DNA from: Phytoactinopolyspora endophytica
Lineage (GTDB): Bacteria > Actinomycetota > Actinomycetes > Jiangellales > Jiangellaceae
Assembly (NCBI RefSeq): GCF_004138495.1
Contig: NZ_ML142850.1
Span: 182,754 to 197,701 of the forward strand
Direction of reading: 5' to 3'
Length of the DNA stretch: 14,948 nt
The stretch's first letter is position 1. Each line of letters starts with the position of its first letter. Under the pieces are notes generated by a model that was given only the letters and a program-made list of their open reading frames with translations, was not told where the DNA came from and searched no databases. Below, in pieces: positions 9,359 through 14,920 of this stretch. Made by a program: the position numbers and the translations under genes.

Positions 9359-9406
9359 GAACGTCATAGAGCCCCAGCCCGCGAGCGTCGGATGGAGAGC
9401 GCGACC

Positions 9407-10843
9407 GTGTCGGACGTACGTCACACCCAAAGCCAGACGTCATCGGTGCTTACGTCGCCGGACGTGGACTTTCCGCGGTGGTACCAAGACGTGCTCACGA
9501 AGGCGGAACTGGCCGAGAACGGGCCGAGTCGCGGCAGTATGGTCATCCGTCCGTACGCGTACGCCATCTGGGAGCTCATCCAGTCCGAGATCGATCGCAG
9601 AATCAAGTCAGCAGGGGCGCAGAACGCGTACTTTCCGCTGCTCATCCCGCAGTCCTATATCGATCGGGAATCCGAGCACGTCGAAGGGTTCAGTCCCGAG
9701 CTCGCCATCGTTGAACACGCCGGCGGCAAGGCGCTCGATGAGCCGCTGGTCGTACGGCCCACGAGTGAGACGGTCATCGGCGAGTACATGTCCCGGTGGG
9801 TTCAGAGCTATCGGGATCTTCCGCTGTTGCTCAATCAATGGTGCAACGTGCTGCGGTGGGAGATGCGCCCACGCCTTTTCATACGTACATCGGAGTTCCT
9901 TTGGCAGGAAGGCCACACGGCGCACGCGACGCACGGAGCCGCCATCGCATACACGTTGAAGATCCATATGGATGTGTATCGGGACTTCCTGATGAATGAG
10001 CTGGCCCTGCCGGTGTTCATCGGGCGCAAGACGCCACGTGAACGGTTTGCCGGGGCCCTCACTACGCTGACGTGCGAAGGCATGATGGGCGACGGCAAAG
10101 CACTCCAACTGGCGACCTCTCATGATCTTGGACAGAACTTCGCTCGATCGTTCGATATCCGGTACCTCGATCGAGACGGCTCCCACCAGCTCGCATGGAC
10201 CACCTCGTGGGGTTCGTCCACCCGGCTGCTCGGCGGCCTCATCATGGGCCATGGCGATGCCCACGGCCTTCGACTTCCACCGCGGCTGGCGCCGACCCAG
10301 GTTGTGGTGATCCCCGTGCGATCGGACGACGACGTGGTCCAGCAACGATGTCACGAGATCGTCGATCGAATGCGGGCGAACGGCCAGCGGGTCGCGATCG
10401 ATCGTGCGGCCGGGGGTTTCGGTCGTCGGGTTACGGACTGGGAGGTCAAGGGCGTACCGCTACGTATCGAGGTCGGTCCGCGTGACGTGTCGCGCGACGA
10501 GGTGACGATCGCCCGGCGAGACACCGGGCAGAAGCAGACCGTCGGCATGGAGCAACTACCGACCGTCGTCCCTGCTCTGCTCACCGACATTCAGACCGAG
10601 CTCTGCTCGCAGGCGTTGCAACGTCGCGACGACCGGACCATGGCGGTGGAATGCATCGACGACGCCGCCGAGGCAGCGCGCACGGGCTTCGCGACGGCAC
10701 CCTGGTCCATGATCGGCGAAGAGGGTGAATCGAAGCTTGCAGACCAGGGAATGAGCGTCCGCTGTCTGCAGCGGCCCGATGGGACGATTCCTGAGTCAGA
10801 CGATGAGCGAGAGCTCATCGCGGTCATCGGCCGGGCGTACTGA
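9407..10843 (+). CDS. proS: Prolyl-tRNA synthetase, archaeal/eukaryotic-like type
   Basis: A 478-aa class II synthetase that charges tRNA-Pro with proline in the cytosol. Landmarks: DFPRWYQDVLTKAELAENGP near the start, the RPTSE proline-binding segment (about 117-121), motif 2 and the following WQEGHTAHAT loop (about 156-165), RFAGALTTLTCEGMMGDGKALQ, motif 3 with GHGDAHGLRLPPRLAPTQVVV (about 281-301), and the C-terminal anticodon-binding domain (WEVKGVPLRIEVGPRD). It ends in the terminal Tyr typical of this type. The C-terminal zinc-cysteine cluster of archaeal forms is absent, as in other actinomycete members. GTG 9407 is preferred because GGAGAG lies at 9395-9400; ATG 9392 has no ribosome site. 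Compared with typical actinomycete copies it looks divergent, so it may be an extra or alternative copy. Confidence 0.92.
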   Translation: MSDVRHTQSQTSSVLTSPDVDFPRWYQDVLTKAELAENGPSRGSMVIRPYAYAIWELIQSEIDRRIKSAGAQNAYFPLLIPQSYIDRESEHVEGFSPELAIVEHAGGKALDEPLVVRPTSETVIGEYMSRWVQSYRDLPLLLNQWCNVLRWEMRPRLFIRTSEFLWQEGHTAHATHGAAIAYTLKIHMDVYRDFLMNELALPVFIGRKTPRERFAGALTTLTCEGMMGDGKALQLATSHDLGQNFARSFDIRYLDRDGSHQLAWTTSWGSSTRLLGGLIMGHGDAHGLRLPPRLAPTQVVVIPVRSDDDVVQQRCHEIVDRMRANGQRVAIDRAAGGFGRRVTDWEVKGVPLRIEVGPRDVSRDEVTIARRDTGQKQTVGMEQLPTVVPALLTDIQTELCSQALQRRDDRTMAVECIDDAAEAARTGFATAPWSMIGEEGESKLADQGMSVRCLQRPDGTIPESDDERELIAVIGRAY

Positions 10844-12016: not shown

Positions 12017-13117
12017 TCAGCTACCGACGTCGATCCCAGCAAGCTGCACCTGCCGAAACGCCGCCAGCCGCTCAGCTTGCTCCGTCAGCGCGTCGCGAAC
12101 GGATGCGAAGTCATCCCGCCAGAGCTCGACCTGGACCTTCAGCCGTGTCCCGGATTTGCGCGGGCGCCAGGTACCTGCAACCTCACCATCGACGAGCACC
12201 GCTCCGGGGCGGCCGAGCACCGGCCACAGAACCTTGGCACGGGCCGGATCATCGACCAGGAGGTGACGGTCCTTTGCCTGCAGGAATAGGTCATACGGCC
12301 CGAGCAGCCTGGTCGTTCTCGCCGGGCCGGCGGTCAGCGTGTCCCGGTCGGACGCCAAGACCCACCGCCGTTCTCCCTCCACGGTCACCTCGACGACGTC
12401 CGACGGCCAGCGGTCCTTGACCTCTTTCACGGGAGAGTCCAGGTATCCAGCGACATGCTTCGGTGTGGACGGACCGAACATCCGGAGACAGGTACGGATC
12501 ACGTCGTACTGATCCGGTGGCTCGGCGGCTGCTTCGAACCCCGGGATCGGCTCCATGACCGGCGGCGACGTCCCCGCCTGCAGCTCCAGCCCAGCACGCA
12601 GCGCCGCCAGCCGGAACGGCATCTCATACAAGTGCGTCGCGTCGCACGACCGGCAGAACCTCAGATACGGGGCATCCATCAGCGCCGAAACGCGCGCTGA
12701 GACCTCACCCTTCACCATCGGCTCGGTCACCACGGAGCGCATCACAGCGGCAACCGCATCCAACGCCTCCAGCGGAGCGATCCCCGCCGCCTTCAGCGGC
12801 TTGGCCGCGTCGAAGATCCGTTTGCCGGCGTCCGCGTCGGAGAAGGGTGCGACGGCTGCTGCGACCGCCGGCAGGTCCATGCGCCGATAGAGGTGCGGTG
12901 CTCCGCGGATGGTCCAGGCGGTGGCCAGCTCGTGACCGGCCACCGCAGCTACGTCGACGCCGCGCACCGCCAGCGCCCACAGCCCACCGTCGGGTCCGGT
13001 GTCCTGCACGCCGGCATCCAGGACGACGGTGTCCGCCAGCTCGCCCTCCGTGCGGTCGAGCTGCTGGGCACGGACACGGAAGCCGAGCACCTGGTCGCGA
13101 GTGATGACGGTCCCCAC
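12017..13117 (-). CDS. Winged-helix DNA-binding protein of the HTH_42 (YcaQ/AlkZ-like) class
   Basis: A 366-aa protein. It matches the winged helix DNA-binding family related to AlkZ and YcaQ, DNA glycosylases that unhook interstrand crosslinks: VLGFRVRAQQLDR near the start, LWALAVRGVDVAAVAGHEL, TIRGAPHLYRRMDL, PFRLAALRAGLEL, YDVIRTCLRMFGPSTPKHVAGYLDS as the HTH segment, and LLGPYDLFLQAKDRHLLV with a LWPVLGRPGAVLVDGEVAGTWRPRKSG tail. Glycosylase activity is not proven for this branch. The start at GTG 13117 has no Shine-Dalgarno but a TACGAT box six bases upstream, suggesting a leaderless mRNA. It precedes the GntR/LacI-type gene by 68 bp on the same strand. Confidence 0.85.
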   Translation of the reverse strand: MGTVITRDQVLGFRVRAQQLDRTEGELADTVVLDAGVQDTGPDGGLWALAVRGVDVAAVAGHELATAWTIRGAPHLYRRMDLPAVAAAVAPFSDADAGKRIFDAAKPLKAAGIAPLEALDAVAAVMRSVVTEPMVKGEVSARVSALMDAPYLRFCRSCDATHLYEMPFRLAALRAGLELQAGTSPPVMEPIPGFEAAAEPPDQYDVIRTCLRMFGPSTPKHVAGYLDSPVKEVKDRWPSDVVEVTVEGERRWVLASDRDTLTAGPARTTRLLGPYDLFLQAKDRHLLVDDPARAKVLWPVLGRPGAVLVDGEVAGTWRPRKSGTRLKVQVELWRDDFASVRDALTEQAERLAAFRQVQLAGIDVGS

Positions 13118-13289: not shown

Positions 13290-14738
13290 TCAGCCCAAGT
13301 TCACCGTAGGGTATAGCGGGTATCCGGCCAGCACGTCGCCGGCCTGTCGGGCCACATCGCCGGCGATCTTCTCGTCGAGCAGATGCTTCCCCCTCGACAG
13401 GCCGCCATCGCGTGCCGGCGCCCGTTGGGTCTCGGTGAGGACAACGTCGATCAGCCGGGCGATCTCGCCCATCTCGGCCGGGCCCAAGCCTCGTGTGGTG
13501 AGTGCCGGTGTGCCGACCCGGATCCCCGACGTGAACCAGGCACCGTTGGGATCCCGCGGCACGGAGTTGCGGTTGGTGACGATACCGGCGTCGAGCAGCG
13601 CGTTCTCGGCCTGTCTGCCGGTGACGCCGTAGTTGGTGACGTCGATCAGCACCAGGTGGTTGTCGGTGCCGTCCGTCACGAGCTTCGCGCCGCGCCTCAT
13701 CAGCTCTTCGGCGAGAGACTCCGCGTTCTCCACGATCCGCTGCGCATACGTCTGGAAATCGGGCTGCCGCGCCTCGGCGAGCGCCACCGCCTTCGCCGCC
13801 ATCGCGTGCGACAACGGCCCGCCCAGTACCATGGGGCAACCCCGGTCCACGTGCTCCGCGAGCTCCTGCTGGCACAGCACCATGCCGCCGCGGGGGCCTC
13901 GCAGGGATTTGTGCGTAGTGGTGGTGACGATCTGGGCGTGTGGCACGGGGTCGAAGTCACCGGTGAAGACTTTGCCCGCGACCAGGCCGGCGAAATGTGC
14001 CATGTCGACCATCAGCGTCGCGCCGACCTCGTCGGCGATCTCCCGCATGATGCGGAAGTTCAACTTCCGCGGGTACGCCGAATACCCCGCGACCAGGATC
14101 AGCGGACGGAACTCGCGCGCTGTCTCGCGCACCGCGTCGTAGTCCAGCAGTCCCGTTTCCGGGTCGGTACCGTAGCTTGCCTGCTCGAACATCTTGCCGG
14201 AGATGTTCGGGCGGAAGCCGTGCGTGAGGTGGCCTCCCGCGTCCAACGACATACCCAGCATCCTCTGGTTGCCCAGCTCGCGGCGCAGCCTAGCCCAGTC
14301 TTCCTCGCTGAGATCGTTGACGTGGCGCACCTCGGCCTGCTGCAGCGCGGGCAGCTCCACCCGCTGCGCTAGTACCGACCAGAACGCCACCAAGTTCGCA
14401 TCGATGCCGGAATGCGGCTGTACGTAGGCGTGATCCGCGCCGAAGAGAGCGGCGGCGTGCTCAGCCGCGATCGACTCAACCGTATCGACATTGTGGCAGC
14501 CAGCGTAGAAGCGCCGCCCTATCGTGCCCTCGGCGTACTTGTCGGACAGCCAGTTGCCCATCGCGAGCAGCGTGGCCGGAGACGCATAGTTCTCGCTGGC
14601 GATGAGCTTGAGTGACTCTCGCTGGTCGGCCAGCTCCGCTCGGATGGCGTCGGCGATGCGCGGCTCGATGGCGTTGACCGCCTCCAGAGCGTTGTAGAAA
14701 GCGACGGACTCGGGCGTCAGCGGGGATGTAGTGGCCAT
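13290..14738 (-). CDS. glyA: Serine hydroxymethyltransferase, long actinobacterial form
   Basis: A 482-aa PLP enzyme that interconverts serine and glycine while loading tetrahydrofolate with a one-carbon unit. Landmarks: LIASENY (45-51), SDKYAEG (65-71), [20 protein letters not shown] (254-265), and [15 protein letters not shown] with the PLP lysine K277. A segment of about 45 residues (roughly 121-165, including [20 protein letters not shown]) is an insertion found in the long form of actinomycetes; typical GlyA is about 420 aa. ATG 14738 follows AGGAGG by five bases; an in-frame longer start at 14807 is inside the riboswitch and is rejected. A ZTP riboswitch lies directly upstream, linking this gene to folate/purine status. 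Confidence 0.95.
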
Positions 14739-14794
14739 GGGACCTCCTCGTCGGCGGCTCGCTTGGTCGAGCCGGCCTGTCGTTTCAGAGGCCC
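14739..14794 (-). promoter_or_regulatory. Expression platform of the ZTP riboswitch (SD sequestration)
   Basis: The 3' strand of aptamer P3, extended as GGGCCTC (14794-14788), is complementary to GAGGTCCC (14746-14739), which holds the SD of glyA and runs to its ATG. Seven pairs form with one bulged U. A local hairpin CGGCTCG/CGAGCCG lies between. When ligand keeps P3 folded the SD is free, and without it the SD is masked: a translational ON switch. Seen directly is the complementarity; the mechanism is inferred. Confidence 0.6.
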
Positions 14795-14868
14795 AGACGC
14801 GCGGCACTACTCATCACGGGCCGCTCCCCGATGGTTGAATCCATCTCGACGGCGTCAGTCACGACCCG
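14791..14868 (-). promoter_or_regulatory. ZTP (pfl) riboswitch aptamer upstream of glyA
   Basis: On the glyA strand the sequence carries the pfl signature: CGGGTCGTGACTGACG at the 5' end, GGGGAGCGGCCCG in the middle and CGCGTCTGGGC at the 3' end. P1 is CGGGTCG (14868-14862) with CGGCCCG (14823-14817), seven pairs with one G-U. P2 is GATGG with CCATC (14845-14841 and 14834-14830). The pseudoknot pairs GACG (14856-14853) with CGTC (14799-14796), where the family usually has GGCG with CGCC. P3 closes GCC (14805-14803) with GGGC (14794-14791). ZTP riboswitches sense the purine-pathway signal ZTP/ZMP, which builds up when 10-formyl-tetrahydrofolate runs low, and switch on folate genes such as glyA. 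Confidence 0.93.
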
Positions 14869-14875
14869 AGAAGAC

Positions 14876-14881
14876 AGCCTA
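14876..14881 (-). promoter_or_regulatory. Possible -10 box for glyA and its riboswitch
   Basis: TAGGCT on the glyA strand fits TANNNT. Transcription six to seven bases later would start at about 14869, exactly at the first base pair of riboswitch P1. A weak GTGACG -35 lies upstream with a short 15-bp gap inside the adjacent terminator hairpin, so the promoter is only moderately supported. Confidence 0.4.
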
Positions 14882-14886
14882 CTAAC

Positions 14887-14920
14887 AAGCCGGGCACGTC
14901 ACACCTGTCGTGCCCGGCTT
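14887..14920. terminator. Strong hairpin terminator at right edge
   Basis: AAGCCGGGCACG (14887-14898) and CGTGCCCGGCTT (14909-14920) form a perfect 12-pair stem with a ten-base loop. A short T-stretch flanks it on either strand. Because glyA is read leftward, it most likely ends a minus-strand gene lying beyond the right edge and insulates the glyA riboswitch. Confidence 0.8.

Follow-up and report, generated by a model that had tools for sequence, protein, structure and literature searches.

A putative Shine-Dalgarno-masking ZMP/ZTP riboswitch ahead of a probably transferred long-type glyA gene in Phytoactinopolyspora endophytica

The long-type serine hydroxymethyltransferase gene glyA2 of Phytoactinopolyspora endophytica is preceded by a ZMP/ZTP riboswitch that probably acts as a translational ON switch by masking the Shine-Dalgarno (SD) sequence; the gene and its sensor were probably taken up jointly from a donor resembling Micromonosporaceae. 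Both lie on the minus strand, near the end of the 14,948 nt stretch of contig NZ_ML142850.1 that was analysed as a whole and is here called the window (Table 1).

The aptamer covers the covariance model of the pfl motif (Rfam RF01750) end to end (1-86), and the match is far above chance (E = 1.4e-7 when the window is searched against all Rfam families); RF01750 was also the sole Rfam family to match the window above its cut-off. In P2, the Rfam structure line joins 14858-14857 to 14828-14827 and 14844-14841 to 14834-14831, the four-pair pseudoknot between J1/2 and L3 is present, and the gene downstream is a one-carbon gene, whose product is named glycine hydroxymethyltransferase in NCBIfam NF010094. 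A preliminary description had proposed a ZTP riboswitch on glyA, and the search against the pfl model as well as the gene assignment bear this out. The span it gave, 14739..14868, takes in aptamer, linker and SD but misses four bases at the 5′ end of the aptamer, which reads on the minus strand. The riboswitch is an additional, ordinary member of the known class, with which it shares aptamer architecture, pseudoknot position, signature bases and gene association; it differs in having A-U for G-C at the second pseudoknot pair. Known targets of ZTP riboswitches are glyA, purH and folD (accessible text of PMC2864571), and we infer that ZMP/ZTP is the ligand of this aptamer.

Table 1. Elements of the glyA2 leader and its surroundings, in window coordinates.
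Feature	Position	Strand	Basis
ZMP/ZTP riboswitch aptamer (pfl motif)	14784..14872	-	Rfam RF01750, 58.6 bits, gathering cut-off 39
P1 5′ strand, partner strand 14815-14824, single U.U mismatch	14861..14870	-	Rfam structure line
P1 3′ strand	14815..14824	-	Rfam structure line
P2 region	14827..14858	-	Rfam structure line
Pseudoknot strand in J1/2, GACG (consensus GGCG)	14853..14856	-	Rfam alignment and sequence
Pseudoknot strand in P3 loop, CGTC (consensus CGCC)	14796..14799	-	Rfam alignment and sequence
P3 5′ strand GUGCC, one U.C mismatch with 3′ strand	14803..14807	-	Rfam alignment
P3 3′ strand GGCCU	14789..14793	-	Rfam alignment
Anti-SD strand UGGGCCUCU, overlaps P3 3′ strand	14787..14795	-	duplex energy and minimum-energy fold
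Hairpin in linker from P3 strand to SD, 7 bp with 6-nt loop	14755..14774	-	read from sequence
Shine-Dalgarno GGAGG; masked strand goes on as CCCA 14741-14738, U14742 bulged	14743..14747	-	
ATG start codon of glyA2; mask ends with its A	14736..14738	-	
Long-type serine hydroxymethyltransferase (glyA2), 482 aa	13290..14738	-	NCBIfam NF010094, 833.8 bits, cut-off 735
TAGGCT, candidate -10 element immediately ahead of aptamer	14876..14881	-	inferred from sequence
12-bp perfect inverted repeat AAGCCGGGCACG/CGTGCCCGGCTT	14887..14920		read from sequence

The pseudoknot, GACG with CGTC, consists of four standard pairs, with A-U at the second, and is a rare form. Among 393 genomes of the class, a pattern combining GACG with CGCC or CGTC occurred in two places, the window and one in genome G054, whose 3′ arm is not visible; the latter is taken as a chance match because RF01750 gave no match in G054 at E ≤ 0.001. 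The corresponding GGCG pattern with CGYC occurred in 116 places in 106 genomes. Patterns read backwards as a control gave 12 matches for GGCG and 0 for GACG, so some of the 116 places are due to chance. CGTC, the G.U form, is visible in at least 4 of the 116 (G212, G235, G267 and G275, all of one genus), a few other 3′ arms not being visible among the matches listed, and no aptamer found by the patterns across the 393 genomes had an A.C mismatch at the second pair. Such patterns detect only exact ACTG, GGGGAGC and CTGGG with limited spacing, and the host's own glyA leader escapes them. The occurrence of G-C, G.U and A-U states supports real pairing at this position, and the compensatory change claimed in the preliminary description stands in the sense that the pair is kept, as A-U in one sequence and as G.U in four others. 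It is very improbable that the variant marks a degenerate aptamer that has lost ligand binding: although GACG/CGTC recurred in no other aptamer found by the patterns, the second pair is maintained, the score is well above the family cut-off, and the aptamer outscores the other listed aptamer of the genome (58.6 vs 54.4 bits).

Complementarity of the P3 3′ strand (GGGCCTC) to the SD region (GAGGTCC) had also been noticed earlier and is confirmed. By duplex prediction, UGGGCCUCU forms nine pairs with GGAGG(U)CCCA, including one G.U and a bulged U, at -14.4 kcal/mol; counted alternatively, GGGCCTCT forms eight contiguous pairs with GGAGGTCC, two of them G.U. The SD lies four bases upstream of the ATG, and the masked stretch comprises the whole SD and the A of the AUG. 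In the unconstrained, ligand-free minimum-energy fold of 180 nt this aptamer strand does pair with the SD, the unpaired probability of which is 0.00-0.06 per base; the inner six pairs of the linker hairpin are also present. Enforcing the aptamer pairs over the same 180 nt, with the pseudoknot strands withheld, opened the SD only partially (unpaired 0.03-0.76 per base) and left the first two bases of the AUG unpaired with probabilities of 0.92 and 0.80. In a shorter leader, holding the P3 strand away raised the SD unpaired probability from 0.21 to 0.88. The masked fold has an energy of -72.3 kcal/mol vs -55.6 kcal/mol for the aptamer-locked form, a gap of 16.7 that includes neither pseudoknot nor ligand energies; with the masked fold lower by this amount, switching would therefore have to depend on co-transcriptional kinetics. 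Taken alone, the mask has a chance rate of about 4% (193 of 5000 trials reached -14.4 kcal/mol when CTGGGC and the SD were fixed and combined with random 8-nt tails and random 4-nt spacers). In this one sequence it is only mildly unexpected; what supports it is the fold of the whole leader and the relatives.

For the latter, 83 long-type glyA loci were assembled (80 from one search plus L001, L005 and L007), and leaders were extracted by pattern from 42 of them. A looser pattern matched four of the 41 missed leaders, three plausibly (L031, L040, L062) and one in a chance-like manner (L086); the remainder, mostly from Nocardioidaceae, Mycobacteriaceae and Propionibacteriaceae with some Streptomycetaceae and a few others, counts as not detected rather than absent. 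Over the 42 leaders, the mean probability that the SD is paired with the P3 strand was 0.30 vs 0.13 after linker shuffling, and the mean duplex energy was -12.07 vs -10.89 kcal/mol after tail shuffling (lowest of 200 shuffles, -12.08). The mask is patchy: its probability exceeded 0.5 in only 14 of the 42 leaders, only 12 showed a gain in SD opening above 0.1 when the P3 strand was held away, and the mean SD unpaired probability was 0.30 in the free leaders vs 0.36 with the P3 strand held. Within the gene's own clade (10 leaders including the window, two of them missed by the first extraction pattern), the mean pairing probability was 0.72 vs 0.26 with shuffled linkers (0 of 20 shuffles as high) and the mean duplex energy -13.6 vs -11.1 kcal/mol after tail shuffling (a value reached by 1 of 1000 shuffles), with three leaders falling short (L033, 0.01; L040, 0.21; L031, 0.49). 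The P3/SD complementarity thus recurs above shuffled controls in the clade's ten leaders, and conservation of the mask, as it had been anticipated for relatives, holds for this clade and is patchy over the 42 leaders at large.

Permutation detected no covariation between tail and SD: swapped partners were as good in 1508 of 5000 permutations of all 42 leaders, and a rerun gave 1552 (all 42), 1718 (16 non-Streptomyces leaders), 792 (one per genus, 14 leaders) and 1489 (40 unique leaders) of 5000. Because re-paired tails and SDs match as well as the true pairs, the two strands are described as conserved and complementary without covariation; the masking platform shows conserved pairing in the gene's clade and no compensatory covariation. 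Directly after the SD GGAGG, a YC dinucleotide that could base-pair with GG in the aptamer's GGGCC was found in 33 of the 42 leaders (four without GGAGG were scored as misses) vs 29 of 116 background SDs from other genes in loci L031-L110, relatedness being uncorrected. This background may include some glyA starts, which were removed by protein motif only; this would make the test conservative. The mask could instead be a by-product of a G+C-rich leader that combines an invariant GGGC with a G-rich SD, the aptamer working through another pairing. We consider this quite unlikely: the chance rate, the lack of covariation and the many leaders without a strong mask (28 of 42 not above 0.5, 30 of 42 not opened by more than 0.1) speak for it, yet it leaves aside the excess of the clade over both tail and linker shuffles and the enrichment of YC after the SD.

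Control could also be transcriptional, with the linker hairpin or Rho acting on untranslated RNA and the SD pairing being secondary. Terminators are predicted to overlap many pfl RNAs (accessible text of PMC2864571), and PMC10085676, PMC7484762 and PMC7337938 deal with transcriptional ZTP switches as far as their accessible parts go; Rho-dependent coupling would be compatible with the sequence as well. However, the scanned leader region (L117, 4700-5500) contained no terminator-like site on the minus strand, both scan matches lying on the plus strand, and the linker hairpin is followed by CCGACGAGG without a U run. An intrinsic-terminator platform, which calls for a G+C-rich hairpin with a trailing U run downstream of P3, was rejected for the scanned region on these grounds, and transcriptional control as a whole appears unlikely.

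The accessible literature describes pairing of a ligand-free invader with the P3 3′ strand as the mechanism of the class (PMC10085676, PMC7337938), with ligand-gated strand displacement during transcription in its transcriptional members (PMC10085676, PMC10907184). The transcriptional switches of Clostridium beijerinckii, Fusobacterium ulcerans and Thermosinus carboxydivorans (PMC10085676, PMC7484762, PMC7337938) likewise have a downstream strand that pairs the P3 strand without ligand and is resisted by the ligand-bound aptamer; in the present leader, by contrast, the SD/start region itself would act as invader, and the scan revealed no intrinsic terminator. A Pectobacterium ZTP leader was used as a translational lacZ fusion (accessible text of PMC10117056), which alone is no proof of translational control. 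No title on glyA ZTP platforms of actinomycetes was found among the matches listed in a literature search that mostly did not extend to subscription papers. The 2015 paper by Kim that established the ZTP class is said to allow ribosome-site control in some members.

We regard a two-state translational switch as the best-supported mechanism and as likely. A shortage of 10-formyl-THF would let ZMP/ZTP rise and bind the nascent aptamer; the bound ligand would lock P3 together with the GACG/CGUC pseudoknot and make the P3 3′ strand unavailable, and the SD would stay open for translation of glyA2, whose serine hydroxymethyltransferase would supply one-carbon units. Without ligand, the SD itself would invade P3 and, through GGAGG(U)CCCA, become hidden together with the first base of the AUG. 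The aptamer is transcribed before the SD, and co-transcriptional kinetics would decide between masked and locked form; regulation would thus run in the ON direction and may involve no transcriptional step. In the two-state model of the preliminary description, the parts resting on complementarity, fold and clade recurrence are well founded, while the release of the SD by ligand is something we infer.

In a tree of 83 proteins, the enzyme from the window groups as sister to Micromonospora plus Actinoplanes, and Catellatospora branches outside them (support 100/89 and 97/81). The terminal branch leading to the window's enzyme is long (0.31), and the tree program flagged its placement as unsure. 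Long-type glyA was not found in 21 other genomes of the host's family, where the best matches were to the short-type enzyme (top segment identity 54%). The long-type glyA leaders of Micromonosporaceae (Micromonospora, Actinoplanes, Paractinoplanes and Catellatospora; L031, L033, L036, L039, L040, L046, L067-L069) share gene type, aptamer, GGGCCYUC tail and GGAGGNC SD with the window. They differ in the distance from the aptamer GGG to the SD, 17-19 nt vs 44 nt with a hairpin in the window, and the pseudoknot variant is particular to the window leader. Because of the placement with Micromonosporaceae, the absence from the host's family and the shared tail and SD sequences, riboswitch and glyA2 probably arrived together by transfer from a Micromonosporaceae-like donor. 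In G004, G005 and G029, the loci (about 4.1 kb) that carry an orthologue of the downstream gene (12017-13117) lack glyA2, which fits a gain, short of proof; the synteny comparison revealed no flank shared on both sides. A further idea, that the native glyA was broken and replaced by the newcomer, is unsupported: the host's own short-type copy on contig C23 matches in pieces and contains 57 consecutive N, a gap or mask that is uninformative about damage. A fuller scenario, to which we give about even chances, is that of a portable sensor-gene unit, in which a foreign second serine hydroxymethyltransferase moved with its ZTP riboswitch between actinomycete families into a genome whose own glyA and purH already had ZTP-type leaders, two isozymes came under one alarmone, the SD and the A of the AUG serve as invader so that no additional strand is required, and the pseudoknot drifted via G.U to A-U.

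Upstream of the aptamer, a sigma-70 scan of the leader region found no promoter-like site. The inverted repeat at 14887-14920 is possibly the terminator of the upstream gene, insulating glyA2; its loop of 10 exceeds the 3-8 range of our terminator scan. A close-in glyA2 promoter would overlap this repeat or sit in the 14 bases after it. A scaffold gap of 10 N begins at genome position 197702, one base past the window end, so the upstream neighbour of glyA2 is uncertain. Elsewhere in the window, a family I proline--tRNA ligase (9392-10843; TIGR00408, 484 bits) adjoins a transporter ATPase gene.

Several other leaders of this type were observed. That of the host's short-type glyA (C23, about 44535-44448; L115) shows a ZTP signature by eye (ACTGGCG, ACCACCGGGGAGC, CGCGCCTGGGG) and is absent from the RF01750 matches at E ≤ 0.001, perhaps owing to a long insertion between GGCG and P2. 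A ZTP aptamer of 54.4 bits lies ahead of purH (contig C13, 67418-67506; L002, L116); a simple P3/SD match is not evident by eye in its tail and SD (GAGGAGAGAG), and its platform may differ. Short-type glyA leaders of the host's family (L016-L021, L023-L030) contain, by eye, a purine-rich SD, ATGTGGC or GTG, a short stretch and ATGACC, a pattern that could reflect a GTG/ATG start lying a few codons ahead in the same frame, or else a very short upstream frame ending at or overlapping the ATG. The long-type glyA with ZTP leader of Nocardia otitidiscaviarum NBRC 14405 (L057) stands beside Streptomyces in the tree, a possible transfer or contamination. By pattern, no ZTP leader was recognised on the long-type glyA of Nocardioidaceae, Mycobacteriaceae and Propionibacteriaceae (loci with none recognised: L066, L072-L075, L079, L080, L082-L093, L095-L098, L100-L105, with the chance-like match in L086), while relatives in Blastococcus and Klenkia have one; presence and non-detection on the same long-type gene suggest gain or loss of the switch.

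The overall picture of the ZTP class is unchanged by these results; what they add is small, namely the A-U pair in the pseudoknot and the apparent transfer of sensor and gene together. If the proposed mechanism is true, the leader represents a compact translational form of a class whose examined examples are, in the accessible literature, transcriptional, and its natural pseudoknot variant would let the share of the second pair in ZMP binding be tested. If the transfer is true as well, a metabolic isozyme moves with its own metabolite sensor and would come under the alarmone at once.
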